Part shown: positions 12,159 through 59,671 of the stretch, one piece after another
How positions within the stretch are numbered: the first letter of the stretch is position 1
Layout of the letters: each line of letters begins with the position of its first letter
From: an endosymbiont 'TC1' of Trimyema compressum
GTDB lineage: Bacteria > Bacillota > TC1
DNA: 64,000 bases
NCBI RefSeq assembly: GCF_001584725.1
Contig: NZ_CP014606.1
Location: 310,001 to 374,000, forward strand
Direction of reading: 5' to 3'
Translations under genes and position numbers: made by a program
Notes under the pieces: generated by a model
The model's input: the letters and a program-made list of their open reading frames with translations, nothing else
What the model was told of the DNA's origin: nothing
Database searches by the model: none

Positions 12159-13165
12159 ATGAAACAAGATACTATTGTAATATTAGACTTAGGAAATTGT
12201 GAAAATACTATTTTAGCAAGAGCCATTAGAGAACTAGGGGTTTATAGTGAGATTTATCCTCACGATACTACCATAGAGGCTTTAAATGCAATAGGAAATG
12301 TAAAAGGCGTTATCATTAATGGTGGTCCTAATAATATTGTAGATGACCAACCTATTAGTGTTAACTCAGAGTTACTTGAAACAAATTATCCTATACTTGC
12401 AGTAGACTATGAATCAGCTACTGGTCTTAAAACCTTTAGTCAATGGCCAGAAGACGTTGAAGTTATGAAAGATGTACTAAAATCATTTATCTTTGATGAC
12501 TGCCAAGTAATTGCAAATTGGAATATGAAAAATTTTGTAGCAGATCAAGTAGAGCTTATCCTTCGTCAGGTAGGAGACCGTAAAGTGCTTTTAGCTTTGT
12601 CTGGAGGTGTTGATAGCTCAAGTAGTTGCAGCATTATTAATAAAAGCTATTGGTAAACAATTAGTCTGTGTTCATGTTAATCATGGTCTTATGCGTAAAG
12701 GTGAATCGGAAAGTGTTGTAGAAGTATTTGGTAAAGCGTTAGATACAAATCTTATATATGCAAATGTTAGTGAGCGCTTTTTAAGTAAACTAAAAGGTGT
12801 AGAAGATCCAGAAGAAAAAAGAAAAATTATTGGTGAAGAATTTTTTGTGTTTTTGAAGAAGAAGCTATAAAACTAAAAGGAATTGATTTTTTAGCTCAAG
12901 GCACTATCTATCCAGACATTATTGAAAGTGGCACTAAAACAATGAAGGTAATTAAATCCCATCACAATGTTGGCGGCTTACCAGAAGATTTAGAATTTTC
13001 GCTTGTAGAGCCATTATCTTAACTATTTAAGGATGAGGTAAGAGCTTGTGGTATAGAATTTGGGGCTTCCTCATGATATGGTTTATCGTCAGCCGTTTCC
13101 TGGGCCTGGTCTAGGGATTCGTTGCCTTGGCGAAATAACTAAAGAACGTCTTGAGGCTGTAGGCT
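12159..13165 (+). pseudogene. Second GMP-synthase-like gene: degenerate amidotransferase domain, frameshifted, 3' end lost at IS
   Basis: It starts MKQDTIVILDLGNCENTILA after GAGGAGAAA. The amidotransferase nucleophile region reads LAVDYESATG, with no Cys. About 85 residues that normally carry the catalytic His/Glu are absent, yet the frame continues in register (NWNMKNFVADQVEL) into the P-loop ALSGGVDSS. Later events break it: a frameshift near 12620, another near 12855, a stop at 13020 and a further shift after [14 protein letters not shown]. The last recognisable part, [17 protein letters not shown], runs into the IS at 13166. The domain loss may be an older, tolerated change preceding pseudogenisation. 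Confidence 0.88.
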
Positions 13166-13202
13166 TGGAAGAATGTCAATAGAGTAGATAGAAAAAGTGA
13201 AA

Positions 13203-14080
13203 TTAAGTTTTAATAGAAGTGAAAAAATAGTCTTCTTTGGAATTAGGAGAAAGAATGTTATTAGCAGAGTGGGGACGTATAGGGGGTTGTAGAAGCCCTC
13301 AATGTGTTCAAAGCAGGAAAGCTTAATTTGAGCAAAGGAAGAAAAAGACCTACGAAGAATTTCTTCTTTTTTCATATATTTAAAAAGGACTCAACGACAG
13401 CATTGTCCCAAGGATGAGAAAGCTTAGAAAAAGATTGAATGATACCAAAAGAATCAAGGAGCTTTCTAAAGATAAAAGAAGTATATTAGGAACCTCTGTC
13501 AGAATGAAAAATAAGAGAAGTAGAAGGTTTTTGAGAATAAAAGGCTTTGATAAAAGTATCCTTAACAAGAGAAGTATCAATTTTAAGAGAGAGCTTCCAA
13601 GCAATAATTTTACGAGAAAATAAATCCATAATAACACAGAGATAAGCAAAAGAGGCATTTAAATTAATATAGGTAATGTCACTAGCCCAGACTTGATTGG
13701 GCTGAGGAACATTAAAATTTTGATTTAGGTAGTTAGGGCAATCAAAATTGGGAATAGACCTCGGATGAATAAACCGAAGTTTGATAGTAGGCATTTTAGG
13801 AAGATTCATGTCAGTCATCAGGCGGCTCGCTCTACCAATACTGATGTTGATGCCATAGTCATAGGAAAGAAGAGCCTTAATCTTAGATGGGCCAATACGT
13901 CTCTTAGTAAGATGACAAATCTCCGAGAATAAGCTGACGGAGTTTTTAATTCTCAATAGTTCTAGGAGAAAGTTTTTCCGAAAAGTATTTGTAATAGGAG
14001 CTGCGGTTCACTTTAAGGACATGACAAAGAAAAGAGATAGCGTGCTGAAAACGAAGGGTATGAACAGCCATTAATCTTTG
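13203..14080 (-). pseudogene. IS transposase OrfB (copy 1), defective
   Basis: The DDE integrase core is recognisable (VWASDITYINL, VIMDLFSRKIIAWKLS, LIFHSDRGS). A stop follows GS where Q is expected, another precedes KLRQLIL, and there are frameshifts before EICHLTKRR, before KKEEILRRSF and near FYN. Identical lesions occur in the other two copies. Confidence 0.88.
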
Positions 14081-14133
14081 TCTGAGTGAGGCGTGAATAT
14101 GGCAATTGCTTTTTTTAAAATGATATTTTCCTC

Positions 14134-14352
14134 CTAGAGTCGAGCATTACGCTTTTGAAGATCCTTAATCTGCTTAGCGGTTAGAATAGTATCATCATCA
14201 ATTCTAACCTGAGAATAAAGTTTAATCCACTTGTGTAAAGCAGACATGGAGACACCATATTCTTTAGAAAGTTGGGATTGAGTTTTACCGTTTTGGTGTA
14301 AATTAACAATACTTTTTTTAAATTCTTCATCGTATTTCTTGTAATTATTCAT
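14134..14352 (-). pseudogene. IS transposase OrfA (copy 1), truncated by a nonsense codon
   Basis: A helix-turn-helix protein starting MNNYKKYDEEFKKSIVNL, with the IS3-type SQLSKEYGVSMSALHKWIK helix. The frame stops at TAG after KRNARL where Q is expected; the leucine-zipper continuation EENIILKKAIAIF is readable beyond it. Without that part the normal OrfA-OrfB fusion cannot form. Confidence 0.88.
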
Positions 14353-26203: not shown

Positions 26204-26242
26204 AAGCTTAATAATATTTTTAAAGCTTTAATTATTTAAAAT

Positions 26243-26444
26243 TAAACCCTGTTTGGTCGCATGCCGTCACTTAAAACCCGTCTATGACAGGTGGGTGCTC
26301 TCCTTTGAACTTCACGCTTCCTTCATCTGGTAAACCAGGAGGTCTGCAATCCTGAGCAAAGAGGCTAAGCTCCCATTAATTACTTTGCGGAATTAAATAA
26401 ACGACACACGACCCAGCAGGGTTTAAAGAACAAATCTTTGTTGT
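26243..26444 (-). ncRNA. ssrS: 6S RNA
   Basis: On the minus strand about 200 nt fold into one long interrupted hairpin. The closing stem is AAACCCTG-CTGGGTCG / CGACC-AAACAGGGTTT, and the 3' side of the central bubble reads GAGCACCCACCTGTC and GGGTTTTAAGTGACGGCATG. This matches the pattern of Firmicutes 6S RNAs, which mimic an open promoter and sequester sigma-A RNA polymerase in stationary phase. A promoter sits at the expected distance upstream. Recognition is by pattern and memory; no covariance search was possible. Confidence 0.75.
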
Positions 26445-32787: not shown

Positions 32788-32818
32788 AAAAATGGAGTGT
32801 TATTAACACTCCATTTTT
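32788..32818 (+). terminator. Rho-independent terminator
   Basis: Stem AAAAATGGAGTGTT / AACACTCCATTTTT. Confidence 0.88.
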
Positions 32819-32973
32819 AATCTAAAATATAAAAATTACTGATGTAATTTGTGTTATAATTAAAATTATCTAAAATATATATGCAGAAAAATCGGAAATG
32901 AAATAATAAAATAGCCATTACAGAAACAGAAGCTACTGGAAGAATGTCAATAGAGTAGATAGAAAAAGTGAAA

Positions 32974-33851
32974 TTAAGTTTTAATAGAAGTGAAAAAATA
33001 GTCTTCTTTGGAATTAGGAGAAAGAATGTTATTAGCAGAGTGGGGACGTATAGGGGGTTGTAGAAGCCCTCAATGTGTTCAAAGCAGGAAAGCTTAATTT
33101 GAGCAAAGGAAGAAAAAGACCTACGAAGAATTTCTTCTTTTTTCATATATTTAAAAAGGACTCAACGACAGCATTGTCCCAAGGATGAGAAAGCTTAGAA
33201 AAAGATTGAATGATACCAAAAGAATCAAGGAGCTTTCTAAAGATAAAAGAAGTATATTAGGAACCTCTGTCAGAATGAAAAATAAGAGAAGTAGAAGGTT
33301 TTTGAGAATAAAAGGCTTTGATAAAAGTATCCTTAACAAGAGAAGTATCAATTTTAAGAGAGAGCTTCCAAGCAATAATTTTACGAGAAAATAAATCCAT
33401 AATAACACAGAGATAAGCAAAAGAGGCATTTAAATTAATATAGGTAATGTCACTAGCCCAGACTTGATTGGGCTGAGGAACATTAAAATTTTGATTTAGG
33501 TAGTTAGGGCAATCAAAATTGGGAATAGACCTCGGATGAATAAACCGAAGTTTGATAGTAGGCATTTTAGGAAGATTCATGTCAGTCATCAGGCGGCTCG
33601 CTCTACCAATACTGATGTTGATGCCATAGTCATAGGAAAGAAGAGCCTTAATCTTAGATGGGCCAATACGTCTCTTAGTAAGATGACAAATCTCCGAGAA
33701 TAAGCTGACGGAGTTTTTAATTCTCAATAGTTCTAGGAGAAAGTTTTTCCGAAAAGTATTTGTAATAGGAGCTGCGGTTCACTTTAAGGACATGACAAAG
33801 AAAAGAGATAGCGTGCTGAAAACGAAGGGTATGAACAGCCATTAATCTTTG
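32974..33851 (-). pseudogene. IS transposase OrfB (copy 2), defective
   Basis: Same DDE core and same set of stops and frameshifts as copy 1 (stop after HSDRGS; frameshifts before EICHLTKRR, at the KKEEIL junction and near FYN). Confidence 0.88.
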
Positions 33852-33904
33852 TCTGAGTGAGGCGTGAATATGGCAATTGCTTTTTTTAAAATGATATTTT
33901 CCTC

Positions 33905-34123
33905 CTAGAGTCGAGCATTACGCTTTTGAAGATCCTTAATCTGCTTAGCGGTTAGAATAGTATCATCATCAATTCTAACCTGAGAATAAAGTTTAATCCA
34001 CTTGTGTAAAGCAGACATGGAGACACCATATTCTTTAGAAAGTTGGGATTGAGTTTTACCGTTTTGGTGTAAATTAACAATACTTTTTTTAAATTCTTCA
34101 TCGTATTTCTTGTAATTATTCAT
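33905..34123 (-). pseudogene. IS transposase OrfA (copy 2), truncated
   Basis: Identical 72-residue HTH product ending at the same TAG after KRNARL. Confidence 0.88.
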
Positions 34124-44117: not shown

Positions 44118-44336
44118 ATGAATAATTACAAGAAATACGATGAAGAATTTAAAAAAAGTATTGTTAATTTACACCAAAACGGTAAAACTCAATCCCAACT
44201 TTCTAAAGAATATGGTGTCTCCATGTCTGCTTTACACAAGTGGATTAAACTTTATTCTCAGGTTAGAATTGATGATGATACTATTCTAACCGCTAAGCAG
44301 ATTAAGGATCTTCAAAAGCGTAATGCTCGACTCTAG
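44118..44336 (+). pseudogene. IS transposase OrfA (copy 3), truncated
   Basis: HTH protein MNNYKKYDEEFKKSIVNL, TAG after KRNARL; the readable continuation reaches KAIAIFTPHSDKD at 44400 in the same frame. Confidence 0.88.
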
Positions 44337-44389
44337 GAGGAAAATATCATTTTAAAAAAAGCAATTGCCATATTCACGCCTCACTCAGA

Positions 44390-45267
44390 CAAAGATTAAT
44401 GGCTGTTCATACCCTTCGTTTTCAGCACGCTATCTCTTTTCTTTGTCATGTCCTTAAAGTGAACCGCAGCTCCTATTACAAATACTTTTCGGAAAAACTT
44501 TCTCCTAGAACTATTGAGAATTAAAAACTCCGTCAGCTTATTCTCGGAGATTTGTCATCTTACTAAGAGACGTATTGGCCCATCTAAGATTAAGGCTCTT
44601 CTTTCCTATGACTATGGCATCAACATCAGTATTGGTAGAGCGAGCCGCCTGATGACTGACATGAATCTTCCTAAAATGCCTACTATCAAACTTCGGTTTA
44701 TTCATCCGAGGTCTATTCCCAATTTTGATTGCCCTAACTACCTAAATCAAAATTTTAATGTTCCTCAGCCCAATCAAGTCTGGGCTAGTGACATTACCTA
44801 TATTAATTTAAATGCCTCTTTTGCTTATCTCTGTGTTATTATGGATTTATTTTCTCGTAAAATTATTGCTTGGAAGCTCTCTCTTAAAATTGATACTTCT
44901 CTTGTTAAGGATACTTTTATCAAAGCCTTTTATTCTCAAAAACCTTCTACTTCTCTTATTTTTCATTCTGACAGAGGTTCCTAATATACTTCTTTTATCT
45001 TTAGAAAGCTCCTTGATTCTTTTGGTATCATTCAATCTTTTTCTAAGCTTTCTCATCCTTGGGACAATGCTGTCGTTGAGTCCTTTTTAAATATATGAAA
45101 AAAGAAGAAATTCTTCGTAGGTCTTTTTCTTCCTTTGCTCAAATTAAGCTTTCCTGCTTTGAACACATTGAGGGCTTCTACAACCCCCTATACGTCCCCA
45201 CTCTGCTAATAACATTCTTTCTCCTAATTCCAAAGAAGACTATTTTTTCACTTCTATTAAAACTTAA
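44390..45267 (+). pseudogene. IS transposase OrfB (copy 3), defective
   Basis: Begins around RLMAVHTLRFQHAISFLCH. A TAA follows PRTIEN, and a frameshift precedes EICHLTKRRIGPSK. The DDE residues are in WASDITYI, MDLFSRK and the NAVVESF region. A stop follows HSDRGS, and shifts occur at FLNI/KKEEIL and near FYN. The ideal end is SIKT. Confidence 0.88.
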
Positions 45268-45358
45268 TTTCACTTTTTCTATCTACTCTATTGACATTCT
45301 TCCAGTTACTATTATGATGATACTAACACATCATATTTAAATCTCTGATTTAAGGTAA

Positions 45359-52213: not shown

Positions 52214-53213
52214 ATGGGGATTATATCAATATTATTAGGGATTTTAGCTATTGGCATTTTAGCACTTGTTCATGAGGTTGGATATTATATTATGGCTAAA
52301 AGAGCTAAAATCAGTGTAGAAGAGTTATCGATTGGTGTTGGTCCTAAAATAGTTTCTTTTGATAAAAAAGAAACTAAATATTCTTTGAGAATATTGCCTT
52401 TCTTTGCTTATGTAAAAGTAGCTCAAGATGGTGATAAGGACTTAAATCAAGCATCTATTGGTGCTCGCTTTCTTCTTTATGCTGGAGGGGTAATATTTAA
52501 TCTTTTATTTGGTTTAGTAATTTTTATTGTAATAGGCGCTACTGCCGGTTTTGTTACAGATACTGTATTGGTAGGCTCTTTAGCTGAAGGCAATCCAGCA
52601 CAAGCTGCAGGATTGTTTCAAGGGGATCAAATTATTGGTGTCAATGAAGTTTCTGTTAAAAACACAACCGATTTTTCAACAAAAATTCAAGAGTCTGGAG
52701 GACATCCTGTTTCATTAAATCTTGTTAGAGACGGTAAGCCACTAACATTAGAAATAACACCTGTTCAAAATGAAGAGTCTAAAGCCTATAGAATAGGTAT
52801 TGTTTTTGGAAAAGAAAAAATGGCCATATTCGATAGTGTTATCTATGCATTTAAAACCACATTTAATATGATTGGTTCTATTTTTAAGGGCTTATTTAAA
52901 ATGGTAACTGGTACTTCAGCTGTTGAGGTTGCTGGCCCTATTGGGATTGTAACAATGGCCAGCCAATCTACACAACAAGTGTCAGATTACTTCTTCTTCA
53001 TGGCTATTTTAAGCATTAGTATGGGGGTTTTTAATTTATTGCCTATTCCTGCTTTAGACGGTGGTAAAATGGTTTTTTAGCCTGAGAAAAATTACTGGCA
53101 AGAAAGTATCAGAAAAAGTAGAAACCTATGCAACTTTAATTGGTTTTAGCCTTTTAATTTTACTTTTAGTACACGCAACTTTTAAAGATGTGGTTCATAT
53201 AATGGGAGAATGA
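52214..53213 (+). pseudogene. rseP: RIP-type site-2 metalloprotease, active-site mutant and frameshifted
   Basis: Membrane zinc protease that cleaves anti-sigma factors or signal peptides. The N terminus has ALVHEVGYYIMAKRAKI, where HEXXH should be; the second His is Tyr (TAT at 52283, one C-to-T change from CAT). A PDZ domain follows (VGSLAEGNPAQAAGLFQGDQ). The frame breaks at the T-run 53073-53078 right after NLLPIPALDGGKMVF, so the last helix is read in another frame (ETYATLIGFSLLILLLV) and ends at 53213. Neighbouring genes are intact. Confidence 0.87.
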
Positions 53214-56008: not shown

Positions 56009-59000
56009 ATGAATCAAAAATGGAATGATTTTTTAGATAAATTGAATATGGACTCTGAATTAAAAGAGCAAATAAGGAATCCCTTAAATGTGGAGATTAT
56101 GGTGAAAAAAGAAAGCCAGCGTTTTATGTTGATTATTGAAACTGAATTTTTTTTAACTATTGAAAAAATCCAAATAATTGAAGGTGTATTAGAAAAGGCA
56201 TTTTATCCTTATGGGGCTTATGTTTTTCCTAGGAATAACTATGTACTTGATGCCATTGAGAAAATGTATCCTTATTTATCTTATCGAATTAGCAAAAAGG
56301 CACTTTTTTTTAAGGATGTGCCTATGACTTTTAATTATAAAGAAGGCATTTTAAATATTACTTTGCCTTCTTCTTTTCATGTATCATCTTTTAAAAATAG
56401 AAAAATCAATACTTCTTTATTTAAATGGTTTAAAAGAATGTTTGATAGAGAGGACTATTTAAAAGATATTATCCTGGATAGCAATGAAAAATTTGAAGAT
56501 ACATTAGTCAGTATAGAAGAAAAGGAAAAAGAAGCAGTAAGTAAAGTTAATGAGATTCAATTAGAAAGAAAAGAATATGTAAAAACAAAAGAAAAGGCTA
56601 TTAAGAAAACTAGAGAAAGTCATGTGCTTTTTGGCAACTCTATTCTTGAAGAGGGAACTTATCCTGAAAGTTTAATGGATCCATTAAAAAATGTTGTGTA
56701 TTATGGTATTGTTTATCAACTTGAGGAACGAATCTTAAAAAATGGAAGCTTACTTATTACATTTGCTCTTTTGGGTAAAATGACGGGTATTTATTGTAAG
56801 ATGTTTTTAAAGAAAAATGAGGATAGACCTAACCTTAAGAATGGTCAATTTCTTAAAATTAAAGGCAATGGTCAAATTGATTTATACAAAAAAGACATTA
56901 CATTAACAGTCAAAGATATAAATATTTATTTTCCAGAAATTATATCTGATAAAGCACCTGCGAAAAGGGTGGAACTTCATTTGCATACTAAAATGAGTGC
57001 TTTAGATGCTACTCTTGATATTCATGATTTATTCAAAAGAATGAAAGAGTATGGACATAATACAGTAGCTATAACAGACCATGGAGTTGTGCAAATATTT
57101 CCAGAAGCTTATACCTTGGGTAAAAAAGAAAATATTAAAGTGCTTTTTGGGATAGAGGGCTATTTATATGATGATTCTGATAAAGAAAATCTGAAAAAGT
57201 CTGCTTATCATATTGTTTTAATTGTTAAGAATATGATAGGGTTGAAACATTTGTATGAATTGGTGACAGAATCCCATTTAAATAATTTTTATCGACGACC
57301 AAAAATCCCTATGTCAAAACTTAAGGACTTAAGAGAGGGCCTTATTTTAGGGAGTGCCTGTGAAGCAGGTGAATTATATCGAGCTATTGTAGAAGGAAAA
57401 CCAAAGGAGCGCATTAAGGAAATTGCTTCTTTTTATGACTATTTGGAAATACAACCAATCAGTAACAATTTGTACATGGTTCGCAATGGCTTAGTAGAAA
57501 ATGAAGAAGTAATTCGAAACTATAATAGAGAGATTGTAGCTCTTGGTGAAGAATTAAACAAACCTGTAGTTGCTACAGGTGATGTCCATTTTTTAGAAAA
57601 GGAAGATCAGCTATATAGGGCAGTTCTTATGAAGAGCAAGGGATTTAGAGATGTATCACAACCTGCCTTGTATTATAGGACGACGGAAGAAATGCTAAAA
57701 GAATTTGACTATTTAGGAGCAGAAAAAGCCTATAAAGTTGTAATAGAAAATACTAATAAGGTAGCTGGTTGGATTGAAGAGGAAATTACGCCTGTTCCAA
57801 AAGAGTTTTTTCCTCCAGAAATTGATGGAGCAGAAAATCAAGTAAAAGAAATTACGTTGGATATGGCTCATGAAATATATGGTAATCCATTGCCTGAAAT
57901 AGTTGAGAAACGTTTAGATAAGGAATTAAAATCTATTATCTCAAATGGTTTTTCAGTGCTTTATTTAATTGCGCATAAGTTAGTGAAAAAATCTAATGAA
58001 GATGGTTATATTGTTGGTTCTAGGGGATCAGTTGGTTCATCTCTTGTGGCTACCATGATGGGTATTACTGAAGTTAATCCTTTAGTTCCTCACTATTTAT
58101 GTAGTTATTGTAAGACAAGCGAATTCATTGAAGATGGAAGCTACAGTTGCGGTGCAGATATGCCTGATAAAAACTGTCCACACTGTGGCGAAAAATATAT
58201 TAAGGATGGCTTCCATATTCCTTTTGAAACTTTCTTAGGATTTGATGGTGATAAGGTTCCGGATATTGACTTGAATTTTTCAGGGGAGTATCAACCTATT
58301 ATTCATCGCTATACTGAGGAGATTTTTGGTAAAGGAAACGTTTTTAAAGCAGGGACTATTGGTACTGTTGCGGATAAAACTGCATATGGTTTTGTGCGTA
58401 AATATTATGAAGAAGAAAATTTAATATTGCCAAAAGAAGTGGCTATTAATGCAATTGCTTCTGGCTGTGTGGGCGTTAAAAGAACAACGGGACAACATCC
58501 AGGAGGGATTATGGTAGTGCCAAAATCTACAGATATTCACTACTTTACCCCTCTTCAAAGACCAGCTGATGACACAAAGTCTGATATTATTACAACGCAC
58601 TTTGATTATCACTCTATTGGTGATCAGTTAGTTAAACTGGATTTGTTAGGTCATGATGACCCAACAATTATTAAATATTTAGAGGAAATAACTGGCGTTG
58701 ATGTCAAACATATTCCTTTAGATCAACAAGATGTAATGTCCTTATTTTTATCAGCAGATGCTCTTAATTTAGAGGAGCCTTTTGTTGATGTAGGAAGTTT
58801 GGGGTTGCCAGAGTTTGGTACGAGTTTCGTTAGACAAATGCTTAAGGATACTAAACCATCTATGTTCTCTGATTTGCTTAGAATTAGTGGTTTCTCTCAT
58901 GGCACTGATGTATGGCTGAATAATGCTAAAGATTTAATTGTAAGCGGTCGCGTAAAACTATCAGAAGCGATTTCAACTCGTGACGACATTATGGTCTATT

Positions 59001-59671
59001 TAATGCAAAAAGGCTTAGAGGCTTCTATGGCATTTAAAATTATGGAGTTTGTGAGAAAAGGAAGAGGCTTAACAGATGAATTTAGAGCAGTAATGATTGA
59101 AAATAATGTGCCAGAATGGTACATAGCATCTTGTGAAAAAATCAGCTACATGTTTCCTAAAGCTCATGCAACTGCCTATGTTATGATGGCTTTTAGACTA
59201 GGTTATTTTAAAATTTTCCATAAAGAAGCATTTTATGCTAGCTATTTTAGTATTAGAGGGGAAAATTTTGATTTTAATCTTTTTAAAGATAAAAAAAGTG
59301 TTAAGGATGGTTTAGACCAATTAAGTGGTATTAAGATGATGACTGCAAGAGATAAAGAGATAAAGAGCTTGCTTGAAATTGCCTATGAAATGTATTTAAG
59401 GGGTATTAGCGTTCTTAATATTGACTTAAATCAATCAGATGCAGCTCGTTTTAAAGTAGTGGAGGGTAATCTGTTACCACCTTTTCTAGCAATTCCTGGA
59501 CTTGGTGTTAAAGCGGCGGAAACAGTTGTTACTGAAAGAAATAAAAGTCCATTTTTATCTATTGATGATGTTAGAAGAAGAGGAAAACTCAATAATAAAA
59601 TTATTGAAGAAATGAAAGAGCTGAAAATCTTAGATGATTTACCAGAAAGTGAACAACTTTTGTTATTCTAA
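56009..59671 (+). CDS. polC: DNA polymerase III PolC-type alpha subunit lacking the 3'-5' exonuclease domain
   Basis: Replicative polymerase of low-GC Gram-positives. Domains in order: PolC N-terminal region (1-230), OB fold (about 230-310), PHP starting VELHLHTKMSALDATL (about 321), C-terminal part of PHP, zinc-finger cysteines CSYC and CPHCG (697-725), palm with catalytic Asp pair in VPDIDLNFSGEYQP (about 752/754), and the C-terminal beta-clamp-type end EQLLLF. PolC is usually about 1430 residues; this is 1220. At residues 380-395 GIEGYLYDDSDKENLKKSAY runs straight into HIVLIVKNMIGLKHLY. The exonuclease normally inserted here (DxETTG, HNASFD and HRAxxDA motifs) is absent. The frame is otherwise intact. 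Confidence 0.95.
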   Translation: MNQKWNDFLDKLNMDSELKEQIRNPLNVEIMVKKESQRFMLIIETEFFLTIEKIQIIEGVLEKAFYPYGAYVFPRNNYVLDAIEKMYPYLSYRISKKALFFKDVPMTFNYKEGILNITLPSSFHVSSFKNRKINTSLFKWFKRMFDREDYLKDIILDSNEKFEDTLVSIEEKEKEAVSKVNEIQLERKEYVKTKEKAIKKTRESHVLFGNSILEEGTYPESLMDPLKNVVYYGIVYQLEERILKNGSLLITFALLGKMTGIYCKMFLKKNEDRPNLKNGQFLKIKGNGQIDLYKKDITLTVKDINIYFPEIISDKAPAKRVELHLHTKMSALDATLDIHDLFKRMKEYGHNTVAITDHGVVQIFPEAYTLGKKENIKVLFGIEGYLYDDSDKENLKKSAYHIVLIVKNMIGLKHLYELVTESHLNNFYRRPKIPMSKLKDLREGLILGSACEAGELYRAIVEGKPKERIKEIASFYDYLEIQPISNNLYMVRNGLVENEEVIRNYNREIVALGEELNKPVVATGDVHFLEKEDQLYRAVLMKSKGFRDVSQPALYYRTTEEMLKEFDYLGAEKAYKVVIENTNKVAGWIEEEITPVPKEFFPPEIDGAENQVKEITLDMAHEIYGNPLPEIVEKRLDKELKSIISNGFSVLYLIAHKLVKKSNEDGYIVGSRGSVGSSLVATMMGITEVNPLVPHYLCSYCKTSEFIEDGSYSCGADMPDKNCPHCGEKYIKDGFHIPFETFLGFDGDKVPDIDLNFSGEYQPIIHRYTEEIFGKGNVFKAGTIGTVADKTAYGFVRKYYEEENLILPKEVAINAIASGCVGVKRTTGQHPGGIMVVPKSTDIHYFTPLQRPADDTKSDIITTHFDYHSIGDQLVKLDLLGHDDPTIIKYLEEITGVDVKHIPLDQQDVMSLFLSADALNLEEPFVDVGSLGLPEFGTSFVRQMLKDTKPSMFSDLLRISGFSHGTDVWLNNAKDLIVSGRVKLSEAISTRDDIMVYLMQKGLEASMAFKIMEFVRKGRGLTDEFRAVMIENNVPEWYIASCEKISYMFPKAHATAYVMMAFRLGYFKIFHKEAFYASYFSIRGENFDFNLFKDKKSVKDGLDQLSGIKMMTARDKEIKSLLEIAYEMYLRGISVLNIDLNQSDAARFKVVEGNLLPPFLAIPGLGVKAAETVVTERNKSPFLSIDDVRRRGKLNNKIIEEMKELKILDDLPESEQLLLF

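Follow-up and report, generated by a model that had tools for sequence, protein, structure and literature searches.

The polC locus and its product

The window analysed here is a stretch of 64,000 nucleotides from the genome of the endosymbiont 'TC1' of Trimyema compressum, and at 56009-59671 it carries a gene for a replicative polymerase of the PolC type that lacks the exonuclease domain. The features of the gene, together with one frameshifted gene upstream of it, are as follows:

52214..53207, + strand: rseP-like gene disrupted by a frameshift in a T run, one instance of the mutation load close to polC
56009..59671, + strand: polC, exonuclease-less PolC-type DNA polymerase III alpha subunit, 1220 aa, single open frame
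56972..57157, + strand: PHP domain, first part, up to the insertion point, residues 322-383, ligands H324, H326, D333, H358 and E383 (Pfam, alignment)
57158..57208, + strand: short loop, residues 384-400, the site of the DEDDh exonuclease in other PolCs (alignment with exo-bearing PolCs)
57209..57598, + strand: PHP domain, second part, past the insertion point, residues 401-530, ligands H401, C451, D525 and H527 (Pfam, alignment)
58262..58270, + strand: palm catalytic motif DID, residues 752-754, inside VPDIDLNFSGEYQP (invariant in a 19-sequence alignment)
59402..59650, + strand: (HhH)2 region, residues 1132-1214 (Pfam)
59654..59668, + strand: C-terminal beta-clamp-binding motif QLLLF, residues 1216-1220 (consensus of relatives QLSLF in the 19-sequence alignment)

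The part of the window between 45.6 and 64 kb is nearly intact and includes rpsB, tsf, pyrH, frr, uppS, dxr, ispG, proS and polC, and positions 3000-31000 are crowded with split ORFs, which points to many pseudogenes. A 6S RNA (RF00013, 53.2 bits) was noticed at 26242-26425 on the minus strand.

Pfam searches of the 1220-aa protein returned PHP (322-476), Pol3 alpha (612-881), finger (885-1031) and HhH (1132-1214) matches and no RNase_T domain. The protein scores well above the cut-off of both NCBIfam PolC equivalogs (NF001688 and TIGR01405), its palm motif reads PDIDLN, with N at the PolC-specific position, and it is 57% identical to the orthologue of a same-family genome (G001) and 46-60% identical, over the best segment, to named PolC matches. 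The AlphaFold model (pLDDT 88) superimposes on the crystal structure of the engineered exo-deleted Gka PolC, 3F2B, with TM 0.94 and rmsd of 1.9 A. The window protein thus shares the core fold and the clamp motif with the PolC of the B. subtilis/Geobacillus type, which, unlike it, carries an active DEDDh insert. Judged from its sequence, polC is an intact gene for a functional PolC, of the exonuclease-less type present in many clostridial lineages.

The DEDDh insert in the PHP domain, typical but not universal for PolC, is not present here. The insertion site holds 14-17 residues (17 between E383 and H401), in comparison to about 200-227 in exo-bearing PolCs, and insert length, measured from the E to the H ligand in 125 PolCs, is bimodal, no value falling between 39 and 198. 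The PHP domain is uninterrupted and the rest of the polymerase complete. In this respect the preliminary description, which had reported an unbroken frame of 1220 codons without the exonuclease and with a clean join, was confirmed by both the Pfam search and the ligand spacing. It had also cautioned that the gap could come from an assembly collapse at about 57160-57210, and beyond this caution nothing speaks for an assembly or sequencing artefact. The same gap was found in all nine relatives that we compared (five of the same family and four of the same order), which come from separate assemblies, so a collapse is excluded; the frame is moreover open, and the loop is as long as in other exo-less PolCs. 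We give the artefact practically no weight.

Distribution and origin of exonuclease-less PolCs

PolCs of this kind were described by Timinskas et al. 2014 (PMC3919608), who found 6% of PolCs to lack the Exo insert, almost all of them from Clostridia and Negativicutes and paired with DnaE1. The window protein is built in the same way (N-terminal region, OB, PHP without Exo, Pol3, (HhH)2), with a putative DnaE1 as partner, and it is an ordinary, already published PolC variant, correctly spotted in the preliminary description. To estimate how common the variant is we used an even sample of the phylum, 149 genomes with completeness of 95% or more, in which presence of the insert was judged from frame length and match start. 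PolC was found in 113 genomes, 63 without the insert, 46 with it and 4 unclassifiable, which makes the exo-less form the majority among the classifiable PolCs (63/109), in contrast to the 6% of the earlier survey.

The 125-row PolC core tree requires at least 10 changes of exo state, 7 of them forced by starred branches; the PolC trees are unrooted and come from quick LG+G4 searches. Grouping of all exo-less rows in one clade was rejected (AU test, 47-row set, p-AU 1.7e-7). This polyphyly of Exo absence, with 7-10 changes, is new as far as we could find.

The inserts themselves bear on the direction of the change. Among 59 exo-bearing PolCs the distances between inserts correlate with those between cores (Mantel r 0.81, p 0.001), the pattern expected of an insert inherited with the polymerase. 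Within a single family, f21, the inserts of G071, G028 and G152 keep the DIETTG, HNAxFD and HRAxDDA motifs. The insert of G129 (L199) is still 195-198 residues long and its catalytic motifs are gone (VVLALATTG, PNPGSG, SMEGEVK), and in G103 (L200), of the same genus as G129 and with 92% core identity, a stub of 36-39 residues is left. A second dead insert, 227 residues without catalytic motifs, occurs in the Lachnospiraceae assemblies L105 and L108. To the extent of our search, both the Lachnospiraceae case and the co-occurrence of intact, catalytically dead and stub inserts in one family are new.

The exo-less form could, in turn, be ancestral in Clostridia and the insert gained repeatedly, a view which gains something from the exo-less majority in the phylum sample and from the fact that the trees by themselves give the change no direction. 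Repeated gain would have to place all inserts at one site and make them track the polymerase core, and it fits poorly with the remnants, dead or reduced to a stub, that f21 has kept and with the dead form in Lachnospiraceae; we regard it as very improbable. Inserts that follow the core, together with the remnants, favour loss of Exo, which would proceed by inactivation first and deletion after. In the lineage of the window the loss of the DEDDh domain probably predates the common ancestor of the whole order.

Exonucleases and mismatch-repair genes of the genome

The preliminary description left two options for a polymerase of this kind, proofreading in trans by a stand-alone DnaQ or replication of low fidelity. 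In the whole genome of the endosymbiont (1.62 Mb, 2 contigs, 96.9% complete) no match was obtained for RNase_T (PF00929), for dnaQ (TIGR00573) at E up to 10, or for the Pol I-type DEDDy exonuclease DNA_pol_A_exo1 (PF01612); the same exonuclease family searches match in 10-11 of 14 control genomes. The 177-aa exonuclease of a sister genus, used as a query in a search without a positive control, had no match in this genome either. No DnaQ acting in trans was found, since DEDDh and DEDDy exonucleases are undetectable in this 96.9%-complete genome, although a dnaQ gene may lie in what is missing from it.

Other exo-less genomes provide arguments on both sides. At least one RNase_T protein is encoded in 46 of the 63 exo-less genomes of the phylum sample, and in the sister genus g2 a stand-alone DEDDh exonuclease of some 180 aa is conserved (L121 6126-6662, L122 5657-6199, L123 2710-3276). 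This protein, whose counterpart was not found in the genome of the window, suggests that the ancestor may have had an exonuclease acting in trans. On the other hand, many RNase_T matches in other genomes belong to long frames (about 870-1010 aa) of DinG-like appearance, and RNase_T is found nowhere in 17 of the 63 exo-less genomes. None was detected in 16 exo-less genomes besides the present one, among them the single-contig G006, G023, G029 and G100. With none detected in the window genome at permissive thresholds, we consider proofreading in trans by a DnaQ-like stand-alone DEDDh exonuclease largely refuted for this genome and very unlikely.

Both mutS and mutL, whose search had been proposed, are present as pseudogenes. 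In the miaB-mutS-mutL-miaA cluster, between the intact miaB (437 aa) and miaA (308 aa), both genes are broken (G000:C1:1006635-1011183; L150 4636-9184): mutS has fallen into five pieces, its frame changing four times and five stops lying in frame, and mutL is split by an IS element. The mutS2 gene is decayed as well, into five pieces with ten in-frame stops in relation to the sister orthologue (G000:C1:699850-702129; L151 2851-5130). In comparison with the sister genome, 28 intact ORFs of the endosymbiont showed no break. As the neighbouring genes are intact and the stops in-frame, sequencing error is argued against. MutS is intact in all nine order relatives, and the same holds for each of the 18 other RNase_T-null genomes examined, including G129 and G103; judged by these genes, the window genome is the only one of those tested to have lost mismatch repair. 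In this respect it resembles natural mutators, with mutS and mutL inactivated relative to relatives and a load of frameshifts and nonsense codons.

The load itself, reported for the window, is real and extends to other parts of the genome. Coverage by ORFs of at least 200 aa averaged 0.55 in 15 stretches of 20 kb, versus 0.72-0.82 in G002, G006, G023 and G029. Abundance of homopolymers did not discriminate between this and the sister genome. The preliminary description had connected the load with the missing Exo, which fits less well: exo-less relatives with intact MutS are not decayed, so the order-wide exo-less trait alone does not bring decay. Loss of mismatch repair appears to be the better explanation: with mutS frameshifted and interrupted by stops, mutL interrupted by the IS element and mutS2 decayed, a decaying genome would accumulate the unusual number of mutations. 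That this loss started or drove the decay is our inference, and it may equally be a product of the decay.

The PHP site as candidate proofreader

A third option, overlooked in the preliminary description, is the zinc-dependent exonuclease site of the PHP domain itself; neither of its two options explains the case best. All nine PHP metal ligands (HHDHEHCDH) are complete in the window PolC, as in every other PolC examined for ligands, and they agree with the pattern HHDHEH[C/H]DH of PHP proofreading exonucleases. Exo-bearing clostridial PolCs have them just as intact, and this conservation therefore does not single out the exo-less proteins. A DnaE of 1148 aa, with PHP ligands intact by inspection, is encoded as well; it is a putative DnaE1, the type expected beside an exo-less PolC in place of DnaE3.

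Two characterised proteins help to interpret the site. In Mycobacterium tuberculosis DnaE1 the PHP domain is the replicative proofreader, DnaQ is dispensable and the D226N substitution kills the exonuclease (PMC5636811); D226 presumably is the equivalent of D525 in the window protein. The mycobacterial and the window protein share the nine-ligand trinuclear-zinc PHP motif in a polymerase without a DEDD domain, and they differ in that the mycobacterial enzyme is of the DnaE type and its PHP was assayed, whereas the window protein is a PolC whose PHP activity is deduced. In Gka PolC one PHP ligand is mutated and the PHP has no exonuclease activity (PMC5636811). According to our alignment, Gka PolC and PolC 9qpc have N at the position of D525, and this D to N change at one ligand sets the Gka PHP apart from that of the window, which has all nine.

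The zinc-dependent PHP site of PolC, and that of the companion replicase, the putative DnaE1, is therefore the likely proofreader: a trinuclear-zinc PHP exonuclease inside each of the two polymerases would remove the errors. Ligand conservation is no proof of activity: the domain may have been retained for a structural role, and proofreading could also be the work of an unrelated nuclease fold. If PHP were only structural here, the lineage would have no effective replicative proofreading and would tolerate low fidelity, for which the real frameshift and nonsense load and the failure to find a DEDD exonuclease in the genome could be cited. The RNase_T-less relatives G006, G023 and G029, with intact MutS, have nevertheless normal gene integrity, and the nine ligands are strictly kept. 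Besides, when B. subtilis has neither PolC proofreading nor mismatch repair, its mutation rate is about 5.5e-7 per bp per generation and selection acts strongly against it (PMC11890065), a state hard to square with intact essential genes. We find such a lack of proofreading unlikely. That essential genes are intact in a genome without a detected DEDD exonuclease or mismatch repair indirectly supports residual, presumably PHP-based, proofreading. Taken as a whole, an exo-less yet functional PolC, proofreading by PHP in PolC and DnaE1, and a mutation load arising separately from mismatch-repair loss make up the account that we hold to be probable. With somewhat less confidence we favour a broader one, in which clostridial PolCs repeatedly discarded DEDDh in favour of PHP alone and the present genome is the extreme, with PHP-only replicases and neither a DEDD exonuclease nor mismatch repair.

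The interest of these results is in extending the exo-less PolCs of Timinskas et al. 2014 (PMC3919608): absence of Exo appears to be a polyphyletic loss with remnants, and one genome adds to it the loss of mismatch repair and the absence of all DEDD exonucleases, a combination that is new as far as we found. Compared to natural mutators, this genome has in addition the DEDD-null replicase set, genome decay and repeated IS elements. No replicase composed of PolC and DnaE1 had been characterised as of 2014 (PMC3919608), and genomes with intact PHP and no detectable DEDDh exonuclease, some of them in a single contig, offer natural tests of PHP proofreading in PolC systems; family f21 provides close relatives whose Exo is active, dead or deleted. 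According to a statement of 2026, the part of Pol III alpha that gets inactivated is PHP rather than DnaQ (PMC12926913), which the dead inserts in two lineages qualify. The case also calls for caution, as the mutation load follows a strain-specific loss of repair and a lineage-wide trait of the polymerase should not be blamed for it.

The window contains three copies of a repeated element with identically beginning ORFs, at 13139-14352 (-), 32817-34123 (-) and 44118-45340 (+), IS3-like by its set of small ORFs in several frames. ORFs of the element inside mutL begin in the same way.
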